From contig JAFDWZ010000030.1 in assembly GCA_018268195.1 (NCBI GenBank), positions 1-43,598 on the forward strand: DNA of 43,598 bases, in the 5' to 3' direction. This document shows positions 2,377 to 10,102 of this stretch, in pieces (the first letter of the stretch is position 1; each line of letters begins with the position of its first letter). Both the position numbers and the translations under genes were made by a program. The stretch is from Bacteroidota bacterium (GTDB lineage Bacteria > Bacteroidota > Bacteroidia > AKYH767-A > OLB10). The notes beneath the pieces are model-generated. The model worked only from the letters and a program-made list of their open reading frames with translations. It made no database searches and had not been told where the DNA came from.

Positions 2377-3132
2377 CTAACTGGATTTTGACCTTACCAC
2401 GAATCGTATTCCAAATAAAAGAAGCATTGCAATTAAGGCAGGTAAGGCAATAAACAGTAGTCCTAATCCGGGGGTGTTTTTCCCTGTTTTTGGGTCATAA
2501 TTAAAACATGAAAACAAACTACTTTTACCAGGTAAGCGATATGTTGGAATAAATTCATTGTTGATGCTTTCAATTAATAACGCAACATCACTTTCACCAC
2601 GCATGCCCAATAATTTCTTTATTATAAATCCCTGGGTATTGATTCCAACAAGCAATGCATCATGATCAAATTGCTTTATATTATCATTCCATACGGGATG
2701 AAAACCTACAGATTTAATTAACCCCGTGATACTATCCGTAATAGCAAAATGCCAGTTGTTGTCATCTAACAATTCAAATCGTTTTGCCAAATTAACCATA
2801 TCGGCTACAGAATCTTCTGAATCAAAACTTAAGACAAGAACATTGAACGGTTTGGTAGCATCTGCAGATTGAGATTTAATATTTTCTTTCAGTTGCAATA
2901 AATAAGGAGAACAAATTCCCGAACATCTTGTAAAAATAAGAGCAAGGATAAGTGGCTTTTTTTCGGCAAGTTGGAGTACAGTGGTTGATTTACCGTCAAT
3001 CAATTTTAAGGGAGCATTATAAATTTGCTCATAAATATTTTCCTCTTCACGTAAATCTGACTGAGGTTGACTCCATGCCTGACTACAAAGACAGGTGATA
3101 ATTACTAATGTGTAAACAACATTTTTAAGCAC
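2377..3132 (-). CDS. SCO1/SenC family copper chaperone, membrane-anchored
   Basis: A 251-residue thioredoxin-fold protein with an N-terminal signal peptide (about residues 1-21). It has the SCO copper motif CSGIC (Cys70, Cys74) and the third ligand His157 in FDHDA. A hydrophobic segment at about 223-246 would anchor the C-terminus in the membrane. SCO proteins deliver copper to, or reduce, the CuA centre of heme-copper enzymes. The start overlaps the end of the catalytic subunit gene by 28 bases, so the two are translationally linked. No other Met sits in front of the signal peptide, which supports this start. CuA subunit, catalytic subunit, SCO/SenC is the order reported for norSY-senC clusters. 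Confidence 0.9.
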   Translation of the reverse strand: MLKNVVYTLVIITCLCSQAWSQPQSDLREEENIYEQIYNAPLKLIDGKSTTVLQLAEKKPLILALIFTRCSGICSPYLLQLKENIKSQSADATKPFNVLVLSFDSEDSVADMVNLAKRFELLDDNNWHFAITDSITGLIKSVGFHPVWNDNIKQFDHDALLVGINTQGFIIKKLLGMRGESDVALLIESINNEFIPTYRLPGKSSLFSCFNYDPKTGKNTPGLGLLFIALPALIAMLLLFGIRFVVRSKSS

Positions 3133-4544
3133 CGCTTGGTAATATTTACAAAGAACATAATGATAGCAATTAAATAAATCATTGCAGACACAGCTCCTAA
3201 TAATGCATAAGACTTACCGGCAGCAAGTTCAGAAGGATAGTTGCTATATCTTCTTGGAATTGAATCAGCACCTGCAATATAAAATGCAGCTAAGAATCCA
3301 ATTCCTCCAATAATCAAAAGAGCTATTTTTAATGACCTCATTCTATCAACGACTTCTTTTGCAGAAAACTGAGTAGAAAACCAACAGAAGAAGCCGAGAC
3401 TAAAGAGTACATTGCCCATTGCATTGTAAGTGTGAAAATGCGCAGGTACCCAAAGTGTATTATGTAACACGAAATTATTAGAAATGGTAGCATCAATGAG
3501 TGCTCCTACTCCACCGATAATCCAACCGCATGTACCAATCAAAAATAGTAAGTTAGGCATAGACCATTTTATTTTAGTACGATATACAGCTACAATAATA
3601 CTAAATACAGTTACTGCGGCAGAAGGTAAACTTGCCAGATATGATGCAAACTGCCCTATCAGTTGTAATGATTCCGGTTGCACAAAATCCATGTACATGT
3701 GATGTAAAAATGCTCCAAGTACAAAGAATAATGTGAGATTCCATGCAATGGTAACATACCAAGTAGTTTTCCATTTAGGGCGACCACTGATTTCTGCAAA
3801 CAACTCGTAGATAACAGCGAGGCCTAGATAAAGCATTTCATTAGCAATAGTATGACCGAAGTAATAGGTAAGATTTTTCATCAACAAAGGATCATTTGTA
3901 AAAGAGCCATGTGTATAAAACTCTGCAAAAAGCAATATCAATAAAACAACTGCTGCGAGGAGACTGGTTAAGACACCAATCAAGCTAATCATTGAAATGA
4001 GAACGAAAGGAGGCGTTTCAACTTCAGGATTTTTATTTGATAAATGTTGCCAGGCAAAAACCTGAGAGATGGAATATTTTCTTAGCAATGCAGCCATAAG
4101 ACTTATTGTCCAAATAAGCCATCCAACTCCAAGAACAGCAATAGAGAAAAGAAACAAAGCGATTGCCCAACTATCCCACAAAGGTCTTAATGGCAAAGGA
4201 TAAAGAAAAGTCCATCCTGCATGGAATTGCCCTACAAAAGCGGATATCCATAACATAACAACTCCTATAACTGTAAAAATTAAAGCAATGAGATTTGCTG
4301 AATAACTAGTTTTGACATAACGTTCCATGATAAAGTTGAGTGCCGCCATGCCTGCAACAAACCAAATTCCAATCATTGTTAATCCATGGACAGTCATATC
4401 CTCATAAAATTTCGCAGGGTTGAGATGCATTACATCGGCCTGATTGAGACGCATGATTATACCGAGGGTAATAGCTGCTACAAAGAGTAAAAGCACTGCA
4501 ATAATCCAGATTGCCGTTATTTTTTTTAGTCTAATATTCTCCAT
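3105..4544 (-). CDS. Heme-copper oxidoreductase catalytic subunit (B-type-like; candidate sNOR NorY)
   Basis: A 479-residue polytopic protein of about 12 membrane segments. All six metal-ligand histidines of the heme-copper superfamily are visible: His53 (HGLTM, helix II), His231 (FGHTIAN, helix VI), His281/His282 (FLHHMYMDF), and His369/His371 (PAHFH). Oxidases normally carry HPEVY in helix VI, with Tyr four residues after His cross-linked to it. Here the sequence is His-Thr-Ile-Ala-Asn, so Asn235 replaces Tyr. Loss of this Tyr is known in heme-copper enzymes proposed to be NO reductases, and the neighbours (CuA subunit upstream, SCO/SenC downstream) match norSY-senC clusters. It could still be a B-family cytochrome c oxidase; NO versus O2 as substrate is inference. 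It starts 8 bases after the CuA subunit stop. Confidence 0.85.
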   Translation of the reverse strand: MENIRLKKITAIWIIAVLLLFVAAITLGIIMRLNQADVMHLNPAKFYEDMTVHGLTMIGIWFVAGMAALNFIMERYVKTSYSANLIALIFTVIGVVMLWISAFVGQFHAGWTFLYPLPLRPLWDSWAIALFLFSIAVLGVGWLIWTISLMAALLRKYSISQVFAWQHLSNKNPEVETPPFVLISMISLIGVLTSLLAAVVLLILLFAEFYTHGSFTNDPLLMKNLTYYFGHTIANEMLYLGLAVIYELFAEISGRPKWKTTWYVTIAWNLTLFFVLGAFLHHMYMDFVQPESLQLIGQFASYLASLPSAAVTVFSIIVAVYRTKIKWSMPNLLFLIGTCGWIIGGVGALIDATISNNFVLHNTLWVPAHFHTYNAMGNVLFSLGFFCWFSTQFSAKEVVDRMRSLKIALLIIGGIGFLAAFYIAGADSIPRRYSNYPSELAAGKSYALLGAVSAMIYLIAIIMFFVNITKRCLKMLFTH

Positions 4545-4552
4545 ATTTTCTA

Positions 4553-5104
4553 TTATTTAACAGTGAAAGATGATCTCATTATCTGATGACCTGAACCACA
4601 AAATTCTAAGCAGAATACGTTATAGTCACCGGGTTTTGTAAATTTACATCTCAATCGGTTGACATAACCAGGCATTGCTTGTGTTTGCGCAATCAGCACA
4701 TTGTTAGAGTCGTAAATTCCAAAGTTGTGATTTACGTCAAGACTTGTTACTCTGAATTCGACCACTTGATTAACCGGGACTTCAATGGATGGGTCGCTGC
4801 TGGGGTTCTTCGGATCAATTGCGTTGTACGACATCATAAAATAAAACTGCCCTGCTGCAACGTGAATCACCTTGGAAGGAATATCTTTTGCATAAACAAA
4901 GTATGGCGATTTTGGAATGGTGATGGAAGCAAACATCGCCAACACTACTACCAAAATAAGTAGAAACCAGCCACGCTTTTGTAATGTATTCTTCATCCCC
5001 TGATTCTCTTCGCTGGCTGAAAGAGATGATTGATAAACAAAGATGAATACCGCTGTTATAACTACAGACAGGATAGCGAAAAATACTAATAAGGAATGTT
5101 GCAT
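4553..5104 (-). CDS. CuA-binding subunit II of a heme-copper oxidoreductase (candidate NorS)
   Basis: A 183-residue protein with two membrane segments (about 4-25 and 45-63) and a periplasmic cupredoxin domain. The complete CuA set is present: His126, then CLEFCGSGHQIM giving Cys165, Glu167, Cys169, His173 and Met176. It would take electrons from cytochrome c or another periplasmic donor and pass them to the catalytic subunit encoded 8 bases downstream. At 183 residues it is short for a subunit II and has no fused cytochrome c domain, as in small B-family and sNOR-type subunits. It is the first gene of its unit, after a 361-base gap with a CRP/FNR-like dyad at 5137-5150. Confidence 0.9.
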   Translation of the reverse strand: MQHSLLVFFAILSVVITAVFIFVYQSSLSASEENQGMKNTLQKRGWFLLILVVVLAMFASITIPKSPYFVYAKDIPSKVIHVAAGQFYFMMSYNAIDPKNPSSDPSIEVPVNQVVEFRVTSLDVNHNFGIYDSNNVLIAQTQAMPGYVNRLRCKFTKPGDYNVFCLEFCGSGHQIMRSSFTVK

Positions 5105-5465: not shown

Positions 5466-6815
5466 TTAATTGATATGAGAAAGTAAAATACTTTTTCTTG
5501 CTTGCTTAAGTAATTTACCAGCAAAGATTGAGAAGGAAATCATTAATCCGATACCTGCTATGAGAAAGGATATGAAATAAGGTTGTAGTGATTGCATCAT
5601 TACGGAATAGCTGCTTTGCTCTTCTGTTAGCTGCCAAATTCCTTTTTTAAATCCGGCAATATTCAAGGAAAGAAACAGAATAACAAGTGATATTTGCAAC
5701 ATCCAAAAAGCAAAATTAATACTACGGGATGGTTTCGCAGTACGATACAATTCTGGTTTAAGAAATTCGAAACATGCTGCAAGTAAGATCATGCTATTGA
5801 TACCAATGGTAGTTCCCATAGCATGCGCTACAGTAATATGTGTGCCATGGGTGTAAATATTAATTGCAGGTATTGATAAGAGTGAGGCCTGGCCAATATT
5901 AATAAATACCCAAATGTCGGAAGCCATCAGAAATCTATATGGGAAATAATGATAATGTTTTTGTATATCACTAACACTTTTCTTCCAGTTGTAAATAATT
6001 TTCGCGAAGAAAATCCATTCAGTCATACTCACTGCATAGCCAATGTATCGAATATAATTTTCGGTAGGAAGTGTATAAATATGATGCCCCCAATTAAACA
6101 TGAGATTGAACAAGCCAAGGAAATACATTGCAAAAGCAAGATTGTTTTTTCCGACATCTTTAGTTCCGGAAATACGATCCATAAGGAAGAAAGCTGTTCC
6201 ATAAATTAACTGATTCCATGCTCCGACCAGAGAGCCATTTACTTTCCATTGAATGGTCATATCAGTAACAAAATGTTCTCTTATTACAGGGAATAGCCAG
6301 AGATAATTTTCGGAAAACGAAAAGAAGAAAAAAACTAGGCCGGTGAACCACATCCACATATATACAGGCCAGTTTCGTACTTTGTAAATATGTTTATAGA
6401 AGTTAATAAAGAATAAAATCCATGCGATGGCAATAGGCAATGCCCATACAGGATTAAACTCCCAGTACTCTCTTCCTCCAAATTGATGAGTGAAATAAGA
6501 AGTAAAAATTCCAATGATAGCAATCATCCAAAGCAACCACTGAGTGAAAGCAACAGGATTACTAACTTCTTTCTTAGTCACAATCCGGATACCATTATAT
6601 ACACTACCTGTAGCACCAAGGAAAATCCATAGTAATGCTGATGAAACATGCAGCGGTCTTAAAGAAATAAAACCTAAACTGTTTTTTAAAAAATCGGGAG
6701 CTATGTAAATGATTGCTGCTAGAACACCGAAAACGAGGCCTGACAAAAGCATAACAATAGCTGTAACAAGGAATAGGTTCCCGAAATTAATTTTTCTCAT
6801 GTTCGTTATGTTCAA
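5466..6815 (-). CDS. NorB-like heme-copper protein with non-canonical active site
   Basis: A 449-residue protein of about 12 membrane segments resembling the catalytic subunit of cytochrome c-dependent NO reductase. Retained landmarks are His56 (RPLH, low-spin heme), the FeB pair His244/His245 (NWGHHIY), Glu266, the THGT motif at 322-325, and His331 (VAH, high-spin heme). Compared from memory with Pseudomonas NorB, ungapped between helix VI and the HH pair, the FeB ligand His207 falls on Asn193, Glu211 on Val197 and Glu215 on Asn201. The low-spin ligand His349 falls on Met333 (AHAM instead of AHGH). His326 is an extra histidine near the site. Classical NO reduction is therefore doubtful. The start overlaps the NorC-like gene; Met6 (base 6800) is an alternative start. 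It ends a run with norC-like, tpl and tnaA genes. Confidence 0.8.
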   Translation of the reverse strand: MNITNMRKINFGNLFLVTAIVMLLSGLVFGVLAAIIYIAPDFLKNSLGFISLRPLHVSSALLWIFLGATGSVYNGIRIVTKKEVSNPVAFTQWLLWMIAIIGIFTSYFTHQFGGREYWEFNPVWALPIAIAWILFFINFYKHIYKVRNWPVYMWMWFTGLVFFFFSFSENYLWLFPVIREHFVTDMTIQWKVNGSLVGAWNQLIYGTAFFLMDRISGTKDVGKNNLAFAMYFLGLFNLMFNWGHHIYTLPTENYIRYIGYAVSMTEWIFFAKIIYNWKKSVSDIQKHYHYFPYRFLMASDIWVFINIGQASLLSIPAINIYTHGTHITVAHAMGTTIGINSMILLAACFEFLKPELYRTAKPSRSINFAFWMLQISLVILFLSLNIAGFKKGIWQLTEEQSSYSVMMQSLQPYFISFLIAGIGLMISFSIFAGKLLKQARKSILLSHIN

Positions 6816-7215
6816 TCATCCCAAAATTATTTGCCTTAAAAGATCTGGGGTCTGCACTACCGCTGGCATCAGTAGCTTTAAGGAATTCGGCTAATTCATG
6901 AATTTCAACATCTGTCAGACTAAATGCAGGCATTTGTTTTATTCCGGAATTTACCATCGCTTTGAGGAATGGCTCTCCCCTACCTGGCTTTGACATAAAA
7001 TTTGTAAGGTCAGGTCCGAGATAACCTCCAAGTCCATAAAACTGATGACAGCTTTGGCAATTATATTTTTGCCATACCAAACGCCCTTCAGAGGCAAGTT
7101 CTTTATCATATCTATTATCGTCAGCTACTCGTAATGGATGGAGATAAATACTAAAAGAATAAAGGAGAAAGAGCGAACTCAATAACAAAAAAGTATGTCG
7201 TGGTTTGAACTTCAT
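6787..7215 (-). CDS. NorC-like membrane-anchored cytochrome c
   Basis: A 142-residue protein with one N-terminal membrane anchor (about 8-25) and a monoheme cytochrome c domain. The heme motif is CQSCH (Cys53, Cys56, His57) and the likely distal ligand is Met95 in IKQMPAF. The segments GLGGYLGPDL and VEIHELAEFLK match the NorC pattern (NorC has GEGAYFAPEL and a DLAEFLKW helix). The protein would feed electrons to the NorB-like subunit, whose start codon overlaps its 3' end by 29 bases. Its own start lies 18 bases after the stop of the tyrosine phenol-lyase gene, indicating co-transcription with the lyase genes. A cytochrome subunit with a different partner enzyme is possible, given the NorB anomalies. 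Confidence 0.85.
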   Translation of the reverse strand: MKFKPRHTFLLLSSLFLLYSFSIYLHPLRVADDNRYDKELASEGRLVWQKYNCQSCHQFYGLGGYLGPDLTNFMSKPGRGEPFLKAMVNSGIKQMPAFSLTDVEIHELAEFLKATDASGSADPRSFKANNFGMIEHNEHEKN

Positions 7216-7233: not shown

Positions 7234-8619
7234 TTATTTCAATCTCTCAAAGCGAGCCTGAAAGAATCGCAGATATTTGGGTTCGTAAACCATTTTCAAG
7301 CCTTTGATAAATTTTCTCTTGTCGTAAACTGTAGCTGCAGATTCGGCAATTACATCCATGTGCGCCTGAGTATAAACTCTTCGGGGCAAGGTGAAGCGAA
7401 CAAGCTCAAGTTTAGGGTAATGATTTTCACCATTGGCTTTGCGACCTGCAGAAACTATACCTCGCTCCATTGTACGCACTCCGGAATCAATATATATTTC
7501 GGCTGCGAGAGTCTGAGCCGGAAACTGATCTTGTGTAAGATGAGGAAGAAAAGATTTTGCATCAACAAAAATTCCGTGACCTCCAATGGGTTTAACGATA
7601 GGAATTCCATACTCCATCATTTTATGTCCAAGGTATTCTACCTGACCAACACGTGCATGTTGATGATTATCATCAAGACTTTCAACAATTCCTACAGCAA
7701 TTGCTTCCATATCGCGCCCTGCTAAACCTCCATAAGTATGCAACCCTTCATAAACTACTACCATGTTTCTTGCTTCTTCAAAAACATCCCAATCGTTTAT
7801 TGCAAGAAAACCTCCAATATTTACAAGAGCATCTTTTTTGGCACTCATGGTAGCACCATCGGTGTAAGAACAAATCTCTCTTACAATTTCGCGAATACTT
7901 TTTTTATTATATCCCTTTTCTCTTTGCTGAATAAAATATGCGTTCTCAGCCACACGTGTCATGTCATGAATAATCCGAATTCCATGTTTTTTTGTGTAGG
8001 CTCTCAACTCTTTCAAGTTTGACATACTGATGGGCTGACCTCCTGCCATGTTCACATTGGTAGCGATACATACATAAGGAATTTTTTTCGCACCATGTTT
8101 CTTAACTAACTTATCGAGCTTTGCTAAATCCACATTTCCTTTGAAAGGATGTTCATTAAACGGGTCGTGTGCTTCGTCAATGATAATGTCCACGAATGTT
8201 CCACCTGCTAATTCCTGATGCAGACGTGTAGTAGTGAAATACATATTTCCGGGAACAAAGTCTCCCTTTTTAATTAGTATCTGCGACAAAATATTTTCTG
8301 CAGCTCTTCCCTGATGTGTTGGTACCACATACTTATAACCATAGTACTTCTGAATCGCTTCTTCGAGCAGATAATAACTTTTGCTACCGGCATAAGCTTC
8401 GTCACCAGTCATGAACGCGCTCCACTGGCGGTCGCTCATTGAGTTGGTACCGCTATCGGTAAGCAAGTCAATATATACATCTGCAGAATGCAATAAGAAT
8501 GTATTAAATCCTGCTTCCTTGATAGCTTTGGTACGATACGGTTTGGTAGTCATTTTCAGAAGTTCTACCATTTTCATTTTATAAGGCTCAGCCCATGAAC
8601 GTTTTTTAATTATTGCCAT
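7234..8619 (-). CDS. tpl: Tyrosine phenol-lyase (beta-tyrosinase)
   Basis: A 461-residue PLP enzyme of the tryptophanase/tyrosine phenol-lyase family, predicted to split L-tyrosine into phenol, pyruvate and ammonia. Family landmarks are THQGRAAEN (Arg105), HDMTR (Asp219, Arg222), the PLP lysine in SAKKD (Lys262), the carboxylate-binding Arg408, and FF at 452-453. The residue separating the two activities is in the MERG motif: Arg386 corresponds to Arg381 of Citrobacter TPL, where tryptophanases have VEIG. It lies in a run with a true tryptophanase 33 bases upstream and a NorC-like cytochrome 18 bases downstream. No tyrosine permease is adjacent. Substrate specificity is inferred from these residues. 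Confidence 0.88.
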   Translation of the reverse strand: MAIIKKRSWAEPYKMKMVELLKMTTKPYRTKAIKEAGFNTFLLHSADVYIDLLTDSGTNSMSDRQWSAFMTGDEAYAGSKSYYLLEEAIQKYYGYKYVVPTHQGRAAENILSQILIKKGDFVPGNMYFTTTRLHQELAGGTFVDIIIDEAHDPFNEHPFKGNVDLAKLDKLVKKHGAKKIPYVCIATNVNMAGGQPISMSNLKELRAYTKKHGIRIIHDMTRVAENAYFIQQREKGYNKKSIREIVREICSYTDGATMSAKKDALVNIGGFLAINDWDVFEEARNMVVVYEGLHTYGGLAGRDMEAIAVGIVESLDDNHQHARVGQVEYLGHKMMEYGIPIVKPIGGHGIFVDAKSFLPHLTQDQFPAQTLAAEIYIDSGVRTMERGIVSAGRKANGENHYPKLELVRFTLPRRVYTQAHMDVIAESAATVYDKRKFIKGLKMVYEPKYLRFFQARFERLK

Positions 8620-8652
8620 TGAATGAATATTAATTTTATAGTAAATATCAGT

Positions 8653-10035
8653 TTAAATTTTTTCGAGAAGTGCAGAGAAATGTCTCAGGAATGGTGGTTC
8701 GTAGGTAATTCGGTAACCTGTCTTCTGATTTCTTAATTCGAGTATATCGTCAAAAATATCGAGTACATAATCAATATGACTTTGGGTATAAACTCTTCTA
8801 GGAATGGCCAAACGTACCAGTTCGTTCATAGCAGGAATCATATTGCCTTTGTCATCATTTTTACCAAACATTAAACTTCCAATTTCAACGGCACGAATGC
8901 CGCCTTTAATGTATAAATCACACACCAATGCTTGTCCGGGAAATTGCTCTACAGGAATTTGATTGTATAATTTTTTTGCGTCAACATACACTGCATGACC
9001 ACCGATAGGCCAAACTACGGGAATGCCTTTACTTCTTAATCTCTCACCGAGATAAGCTGTACTTCTTATACGATAATGTAAATAGTCTTCGTCAAACACC
9101 TCTGTAAGACCGATTGCAAGTGCTTCCATATCGCGACCTGCAAGACCTCCATAGGTAGTGAAGCCTTCAGAGATTATCAAGAGGTTTTTGCATTTAACAG
9201 CAAGCTCTTCGTTTTTGAGAGTGAGCAAACCGCCAATATTTACAATAGCGTCCTTTTTAGCACTCATCACAAAAGCATCACCCATACGAAGCATTTGTTT
9301 GGCAATATCTTCACATGATTTGTCGGCATAACCTTCTTCGCGATGTTTAATAAAATATGCATTTTCTGCAATTCGACATCCATCAATTACCAACAACAAA
9401 TTATGTTCATCACAAATTTTTCTTAGTGCCTGAACATTTGCCATGCTTACAGGCTGACCTCCGGAAGAGTTATTTGTAACCGTAATAATTACCGCTGCAA
9501 TATTTTCTCTTCCATGTTTGTTGATTAACTGCTGCAGTTTTTCGAGATTGATATTTCCTTTAAACGGAAGATCTGTTTCGGGATTTTCTGCTTCTTCGTA
9601 AACAATATCAATTGCTGTTGCGCCAGTAAATTCTATATTGGCTCTTGTAGTATCAAAATGTGTATTGCTGATAAAAATTTTTCCTTTACCTCCCAGGATA
9701 CCATATAGAATTCTTTCGGCAGCACGACCCTGATGAGTAGGAAGTATATATGGCATTCCGGTCAGATTTCTAACAACCGTTTCTAAATGTTCCCAACTAC
9801 GAGCACCGGCATAACTTTCATCACCCATCATAATTCCGGCCCATTGCTTATCGCTCATTGCACCTGTACCGCTGTCGGTAAGCAAATCAATAAATACATC
9901 ACTTGATTTTAAAAGGAAAGGATTATATCCGGCTTTCTGTAAAGCGTCTTTTCTGTAAGCTTCTGTTGTTACCTTAAGCGGCTCAACCATTTTAATTTTA
10001 AAAGGCTCCGTAAGAGTCCTCATTTTTTCACTCAT
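8653..10035 (-). CDS. tnaA: Tryptophanase
   Basis: A 460-residue PLP enzyme, paralogue of the next gene, predicted to convert L-tryptophan to indole, pyruvate and ammonia. It has THQGRAAE (Arg104), D218 in the cofactor site and the PLP lysine in SAKKD (Lys261). It also has the tryptophanase signature VEIG at 383-386, where tyrosine phenol-lyase has MERG, and ends LRHFSALL instead of LRFF. It is the first gene of the tnaA-tpl-norC-like-norB-like run. A CRP/FNR-like dyad and a -7-like element lie upstream. No TnaC-like leader peptide or TnaB permease is visible. Confidence 0.9.
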   Translation of the reverse strand: MSEKMRTLTEPFKIKMVEPLKVTTEAYRKDALQKAGYNPFLLKSSDVFIDLLTDSGTGAMSDKQWAGIMMGDESYAGARSWEHLETVVRNLTGMPYILPTHQGRAAERILYGILGGKGKIFISNTHFDTTRANIEFTGATAIDIVYEEAENPETDLPFKGNINLEKLQQLINKHGRENIAAVIITVTNNSSGGQPVSMANVQALRKICDEHNLLLVIDGCRIAENAYFIKHREEGYADKSCEDIAKQMLRMGDAFVMSAKKDAIVNIGGLLTLKNEELAVKCKNLLIISEGFTTYGGLAGRDMEALAIGLTEVFDEDYLHYRIRSTAYLGERLRSKGIPVVWPIGGHAVYVDAKKLYNQIPVEQFPGQALVCDLYIKGGIRAVEIGSLMFGKNDDKGNMIPAMNELVRLAIPRRVYTQSHIDYVLDIFDDILELRNQKTGYRITYEPPFLRHFSALLEKI

Positions 10036-10057
10036 TATTCTACTAATTAATTTCGGA

Positions 10058-10065
10058 CTAAATTA
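10058..10065 (-). promoter_or_regulatory. Probable -7 promoter element of the tnaA run
   Basis: TAATTTAG on the minus strand differs from TAnnTTTG at one position. It predicts a transcript start near 10053, about 18 bases before the tnaA ATG. The dyad at 10089-10102 would then be centred about 42 bases upstream of the transcript start, the classical class II activator position. Confidence 0.4.
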
Positions 10066-10088
10066 TCGTGAAAAGCCCATTGGTGTTT

Positions 10089-10102
10089 ATGATTAAAGTC
10101 AT
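10089..10102. promoter_or_regulatory. CRP/FNR-type inverted repeat upstream of tnaA
   Basis: ATGAT-TAAA-GTCAT, a near-perfect dyad with the geometry of a CRP/FNR-family site (TGA-N6-TCA core). It is centred about 60 bases before the tnaA start codon and about 42 before the inferred transcript start. The cognate regulator is not in this window. Confidence 0.4.

Follow-up and report, generated by a model that had tools for sequence, protein, structure and literature searches.

A conserved NorB-like family of Bacteroidota without the canonical FeB ligands of NO reductases

NorC'B' and the described NO reductases

In cNOR, FeB is inserted by NorQ and NorD, and enzyme produced without these two proteins is hemylated, FeB-free and inactive; qNOR is loaded with FeB without NorQD (PMC9976466). 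NO dismutases (NOD) are NorB-family members with an altered FeB site, the hallmark being a replacement of His560 by Asn (PMC10286720), together with a change of Glu to Gln (PMC3413370). The non-canonical eNOR, bNOR, sNOR, gNOR and nNOR belong to the same superfamily and are related to B-family oxidases (PMC11388526).

The window analysed here, a whole stretch of 43,598 nucleotides, carries genes in the order tryptophanase-TPL-norC'-norB', followed by norS-norY-SCO:

8653..10035, minus strand: tryptophanase-family beta-eliminating lyase in the operon of norC'B' (PRK13238, 688 bits over 285; Pfam PF01212)
7234..8619, minus strand: tyrosine phenol-lyase (TPL) in the operon of norC'B' (TIGR02618, 749 bits, cut-off 720.7)
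6787..7215, minus strand: NorC', membrane-anchored cytochrome c (Pfam Cytochrome_CBB3), overlapping norB' by 29 bp
5466..6815, minus strand: NorB', NorB-like subunit, predicted scaffold for heme b and heme b3, canonical FeB ligands missing (Pfam, alignment, AlphaFold2)
4553..5104, minus strand: NorS-like subunit II (Pfam COX2, CoxB; complete CuA motif CxxxCxxxHxxM)
3105..4544, minus strand: NorY-like heme-copper subunit I (Pfam COX1; alignment)
2377..3132, minus strand: SCO1/SenC-like copper chaperone (weak Pfam SCO1-SenC, E 0.0047; CxxxC; position after norY)

Tandem TPL and tryptophanase-like genes (7234-10035) thus share an operon with a NOR-like complex.

The norB' gene is an intact open reading frame of 449 aa on the minus strand (5466-6815) with an annotated TTG start; the ATG five codons downstream is the likelier start, homologues beginning near that position. 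The product scored 118.7 bits against Pfam COX1 (cut-off 34.8), and none of the NCBIfam NOR and oxidase models matched it above its own cut-off. When compared with PDB sequences by phmmer, NorB' aligned with cNOR from end to end (4xyd, E 9.5e-16; 3o0r, E 2.2e-11). An AlphaFold2 model from a 29-row alignment (pLDDT 87.8, pTM 0.90) contains no hemes, and ligand geometry is here read from the alignment. Its top Foldseek/VIA matches were the C-type cbb3 subunit CcoN, with a Z of 41, and, in a tie, cNOR NorB at about 40 (38.7-40.4), and both Foldseek/VIA and Pfam COX1 assign NorB' the 12-helix subunit I fold of the heme-copper superfamily. In contrast to CcoN, however, NorB' has no CuB histidine in helix VI, falls outside the CcoN clade and has a NorC-type partner.

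The NorB frame was found to be retained, cNOR His60, His258/259, Glu280 and His347 corresponding to His56, His244/His245, Glu266 and His331 of NorB', and the calcium-site Glu is also kept. In helix VI, the ungapped phmmer alignment with cNOR places Asn193 at His207, Val197 at Glu211 and Asn201 at Glu215, and in helix X, where His347 is kept, the low-spin heme ligand His349 is replaced by Met333. In one MAFFT alignment a section of helix VI was shifted by a single residue; neither register offered a histidine. Four of the six histidines of the heme-copper signature (as given in PMC3413370) are present, and in a wider alignment the histidines missing from NorB' were retained by all the cbb3, qNOR, NorY and aa3 proteins from this phylum. 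The NorC' partner retains CxxCH, the axial Met and the Tyr of the GAY motif. The preliminary description of the gene had claimed the same frame, the same four substituted positions and a NorC-like partner, and the alignments agree with it on each of these. It had also pointed to a nearby His326, which lies seven residues, or two helical turns, before Met333; helix geometry would place it on the side of the low-spin heme, so it is unlikely to substitute for the FeB histidine. Helix VI holds no further conserved histidine, and an FeB histidine supplied by another residue was rejected.

Two subunits, a NorC heme c gene overlapping or adjacent to norB and the heme b and b3 scaffold are thus shared with cNOR. 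In contrast, NorB' is only about 20% identical to it, is without His207, Glu211, Glu215, His349 and the NorD-docking DRE motif, and NorC'B' has no norQD of its own. Since the defining features of cNOR (three FeB histidines with Glu211, bis-histidine heme b, and NorQD) were looked for and found lacking, NorB' was not classed as one. Compared with qNOR, of the same superfamily branch, it has no fused N-terminal domain, a separate heme c subunit and lost FeB ligands. NOD are long, fused and qNOR-like, unlike the 449-aa NorB' with its separate NorC', which keeps the His and Glu altered in NOD and has instead lost the helix VI histidine. The hallmark residue is unchanged, His245 (equivalent to His560) being invariant in 95 of 95 sequences where NOD has Asn; membership of NOD was thus rejected, in keeping with the earlier view that this would not be a typical one. 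The eNOR/bNOR/sNOR/gNOR/nNOR group differs in that NorB' falls with cNOR and qNOR; it is the NorSY of the window that resembles sNOR.

Whether FeB is present was approached through NorD. Among 61 related genomes norD was found only in the four that carry canonical cNOR; the 28 genomes with NorB' but without canonical cNOR yielded none. The helix VII motif TGVDREVIEKW was almost the same in every cNOR compared, but is not conserved in NorB'; its acidic pair appears, by spacing, to correspond to the NorD-docking D220/E222 of Paracoccus. The ligand losses, the distribution of norD and the loss of the docking motif together suggest that FeB is probably absent from NorB'. As qNOR needs no NorQD, however, the missing NorD is no proof of a missing metal. 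A metal held differently, for example by His244/His245/Glu266, is possible, as is the different metal site or chemistry put forward in the preliminary description.

Conservation and genetic neighbourhood of NorB'

A protein search detected NorB' in 30 of the 61 related genomes, with identities of 38-85%. When GTDB genome contigs were scanned, more than 500 stretches matched; the best 80 were nearly all labelled Bacteroidota, the isolates Planktosalinus lacus and Flavobacterium proteolyticum among them. Of 395 genomes sampled evenly across the phylum, 8 carried it at E < 1e-60. One contig with a NorB' match of 57% identity (L118) was binned as Thermoanaerobaculia, maybe through misbinning or transfer. 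A viral origin was rejected, no relative being found among viral contigs, as was a plasmid origin, the best plasmid matches being NOR-like proteins at about 25% identity. NorB' is a conserved Bacteroidota family and not an isolated oddity.

In 95 distinct NorB' sequences, H56, E116, K191, N201, Y205, W242, H244, H245, E266, H323, H331 and M333 were invariant, and V197 and H326 were each kept in 91. Contig-scan matches had been required to carry a pattern with HH or HxMG, so that invariance there is partly forced, and the same residues were also invariant in the NorB' set retrieved without patterns. The position of the FeB histidine varied (N69/Y13/L5/M3/S2/A2/G1), and that of Glu211 held V, I, S or T. 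Of the residues whose conservation had been proposed as a check, Val197, Asn201, Met333 and His326 thus stood; Asn193, found in only 69 sequences, did not, and its suggested importance as a new ligand had to be given up. The expected clade was recovered, the family forming a single group with support of 100/99 beside cNOR and qNOR, to which it is sister, in a tree with long branches, a single qNOR and a small reference set. The reading frame was open in every relative listed, and comparison of two sister genomes indicated purifying selection (dN 0.039, dS 0.327, dN/dS about 0.1). A decaying gene, already doubted in the preliminary description, was thus rejected.

The norC' gene lies in a same-strand run with norB' in 91 of the 95 loci. 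Recurrent around the pair were genes for TPL/tryptophanase, a protein of about 600 residues, NadA, NadB, proline dehydrogenase, QueD, Rrf2, RIC/ScdA, MbnH-MbnP and anaerobic ribonucleotide reductase, with nosZ, truncated haemoglobin and NnrS-like genes as occasional neighbours. In 48 of 95 loci the same-strand run includes TPL, its gene standing upstream or downstream of norC'B' or between the two genes; it was not nearby in about 40% of loci, and some NorB' genomes had no close TPL at all. The 600-residue protein (L074:5668-7479 and relatives) matched nothing in Pfam or NCBIfam, and its gene often stands first in a nadA-nadB-TPL-norC'B' operon, often with the operator described below ahead of it.

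TPL of at least 74% identity occurred in 25 of 30 NorB' genomes against 2 of 31 others (p 5e-10; genus level p 2e-6), and nosZ in 26 of 30 against 7 of 31 (p 5e-7; genus level p 0.001), p values that are optimistic because the species among the 61 genomes are related. No co-occurrence was seen with nirK or nirS; 25 of the 30 NorB' genomes had neither, nor did 23 of the 26 that carried both NorB' and nosZ.

Enzymes of NO consumption adjoined norC'B' in a minority of loci, several of them close relatives, so that independent events are fewer than the counts. The pair followed a canonical norC-norB-RIC-norQ-norD cluster, directly or with TPL between, in L072, L073 and L085. Putative NOD genes, marked by HN (SHN) in place of HH and STLQ in place of SALE, were found near it in L039, L081, L096, L116 and L128 (and also in G049, at L187); in L128 NorB' itself is truncated. 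NorSY stood beside it in the window, L058 and L096. The gene order norS-norY-SCO and the CuA motif agree with a candidate sNOR (NorSY), and the NorY-like protein has Asn in place of the active-site Tyr (HTIANE). An obligate partnership with NorSY was rejected: NorSY adjoins norC'B' only in the source genus and L096, and in the sister genome G001 norY is broken and norC'B' intact. At L026:6580-7573 (same genome as L092) norY of a sister genome has several stops, and norC'B' and the SCO-like gene are open.

A conserved operator and its presumed regulator

A palindrome, GGAYA-N4-TRTCC (extended form AAATCGGATAAAATTATCCGATTT), was found in 39 copies in the 95 loci, 33 of them intergenic near gene starts, against a mean of 0.4 and a maximum of 2 upstream sites for scrambled half-sites. 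No GGAYA/TRTCC pairs with spacers other than 4 were found between genes in these loci, and the TGTCCGAAAT half-site by itself showed no excess in the window. The operator lay upstream of genes for Rrf2 (11) and the 600-residue protein (9), and of TPL, nadA, norC', RIC, nrdD and, in L058, norS. Genome-wide, sites of the stricter form CGGAYA-N4-TRTCCG, opened in 20 regions, were nearly all intragenic and chance-like; one clear new site preceded an Rrf2-truncated haemoglobin pair (L233). The elements of the window itself were as follows:

10089..10102: candidate inverted repeat of Crp/Fnr type, ATGAC-N4-RTCAT, conserved between two sister genomes
10055..10068: degenerate operator copy, 2 mismatches, 20 bp ahead of the gene that opens the tryptophanase-TPL-norC'B' operon; exact copy in the same place in sister locus L058
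5215..5228: operator copy, 1 mismatch, about 110 bp upstream of norS; L058 has an exact copy ahead of its norS

FNR boxes were no more frequent in the window than expected by chance. A C-x6-C-x5-C motif is present in 50 of 54 Rrf2 proteins, with x2-H after it in the examples shown, and on the strength of this motif they are likely Fe-S sensors of a presumed signal. The operator seems to mark a small NO/anoxia regulon in Bacteroidota.

Possible functions of NorC'B'

The reading we favour, held tentatively and on sequence evidence, is that NorC'B' may be an NO-responsive c-b-b3 complex for accessory NO handling, without canonical FeB, and not an N2O-forming reductase. It would be a membrane heme c-heme b-heme b3 complex derived from the NOR branch of the heme-copper superfamily, in which the canonical FeB site has been lost, as has the second histidine of the low-spin heme b, now presumably held by His56 and probably Met333. 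It would be made under NO or low oxygen by the presumed Rrf2-controlled regulon; heme b3 would most likely bind NO or a related small ligand, and electrons could be exchanged with that ligand through heme b and heme c. The result would be an accessory NO-handling step, placed in several genomes beside a true NO consumer (cNOR, putative NOD or NorSY). We favour this on account of the electron path, the invariant distal residues, the NO/anoxia regulon, the co-occurrence with nosZ and the NO-removing enzymes alongside. His207 and Glu211 are replaced in 95 of 95 sequences, but His56/His331, H244, H245, E266, N201 and Y205 are invariant, which points to a working pocket and not to a wire or to decay.

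Against it, canonical cNOR without FeB is inactive (PMC9976466), and NO turnover without FeB is thus not established. TPL, the genetic partner with the strongest and most widespread link, is no NO enzyme, and many loci also carry genes for NAD synthesis and proline dehydrogenase. The minority of loci with NO-enzyme neighbours and the missing nirK and nirS, as mentioned above, also count against it.

A true NO reductase with a rebuilt metal site, for example a 2-His-1-carboxylate of His244/His245/Glu266 loaded without NorQD and delivering N2O to NosZ, is unlikely. The invariance of these three residues and of Asn201 in all 95 sequences is what it would predict, as is the strong co-occurrence with clade II nosZ; qNOR offers a precedent for loading without NorQD (PMC9976466), and one third of Bacteroidetes with nirK and nosZ were reported to be without norB (PMC4250227). 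However, NorB' no longer has the third histidine or either of the helix VI glutamates, another NO-consuming enzyme is already present in some loci, and most NorB' genomes are without nirK/nirS.

Rather more doubtful is an electron-transfer or scaffold module in which hemes c and b would link the quinone/cytochrome pool to NosZ or to an MbnH/CCP-like diheme protein, heme b3 being vestigial. NorC' keeps its heme c and interface residues, nosZ co-occurs and is adjacent in a few loci, and MbnH/MbnP genes are present in about one quarter of loci, all of which would suit such a module. That His331, the b3 ligand, and the distal residues stay invariant across very divergent sequences would be unexpected of a vestigial heme, however, and only 6 of the 95 loci contain nosZ.

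It is improbable that the complex acts not on NO but on a product or partner of the TPL/tryptophanase pathway (phenol, indole, or sulfide from cysteine): the linkage to TPL in occurrence and in same-strand runs speaks for it, but the loci and genomes without a close TPL do not, and the other regulon members indicate NO or anoxia. A role without turnover, as a membrane sensor of NO/O2 or an NnrS-type trap for NO, is very improbable, for although NnrS-like genes adjoin norC'B' in L101, L107, L111, L117 and L119 and the regulon is of stress type, NorC' retains its complete electron-input chain, which would be superfluous in a passive trap.

Beyond the favoured accessory role, it is conceivable, if doubtful, that NorB' represents a new heme-copper class, widespread in Bacteroidota: a heme-only or 2-His-1-Glu enzyme for diatomic ligands with a His/Met low-spin heme and an NO chemistry besides N2O formation or dismutation. 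To our knowledge, such a His/Met low-spin heme would be the first in the heme-copper superfamily. In the open-access literature we found no account of a NorB without FeB ligands, of TPL with NO reductase, or of a NorB-like protein with nosZ in Bacteroidetes; subscription journals and preprints lay outside this search, and a description may exist there. A recent survey dropped NOR candidates without conserved ligand-binding domains (PMC12569097), a filter by which this clade would be hidden. Bacteroidota make up most N2O 'terminators' (nosZ without nir), and some of their genomes have no recognised nor (PMC12569097, PMC4250227); NorC'B' is found in genomes of this sort, as the 23 with nosZ but neither nirK nor nirS show. 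A loose norB annotation of NorC'B' would inflate forecasts of N2O production, as a ligand filter would overlook the clade, and Bacteroidota genomes called N2O producers from this gene may be misread. The role of the second metal in NO chemistry could, moreover, be tested on a NorCB that naturally has no FeB.

Two further observations concern other members of the superfamily. Putative NOD genes were seen in Bacteroidota MAGs at L039:1060-3390, L081:478-2892, L096:1-1761, L116:1090-3432 and L128:2905-5253, and in L184, L185 and L187, several of them less than 10 kb from norC'B' and followed in L081, L116 and L128 by a gene for a probable lipoprotein of about 480 aa. A 482-aa cbb3-like subunit I (L193; G309:C8:70500-75000) branched outside the cbb3 group with all its histidines kept.
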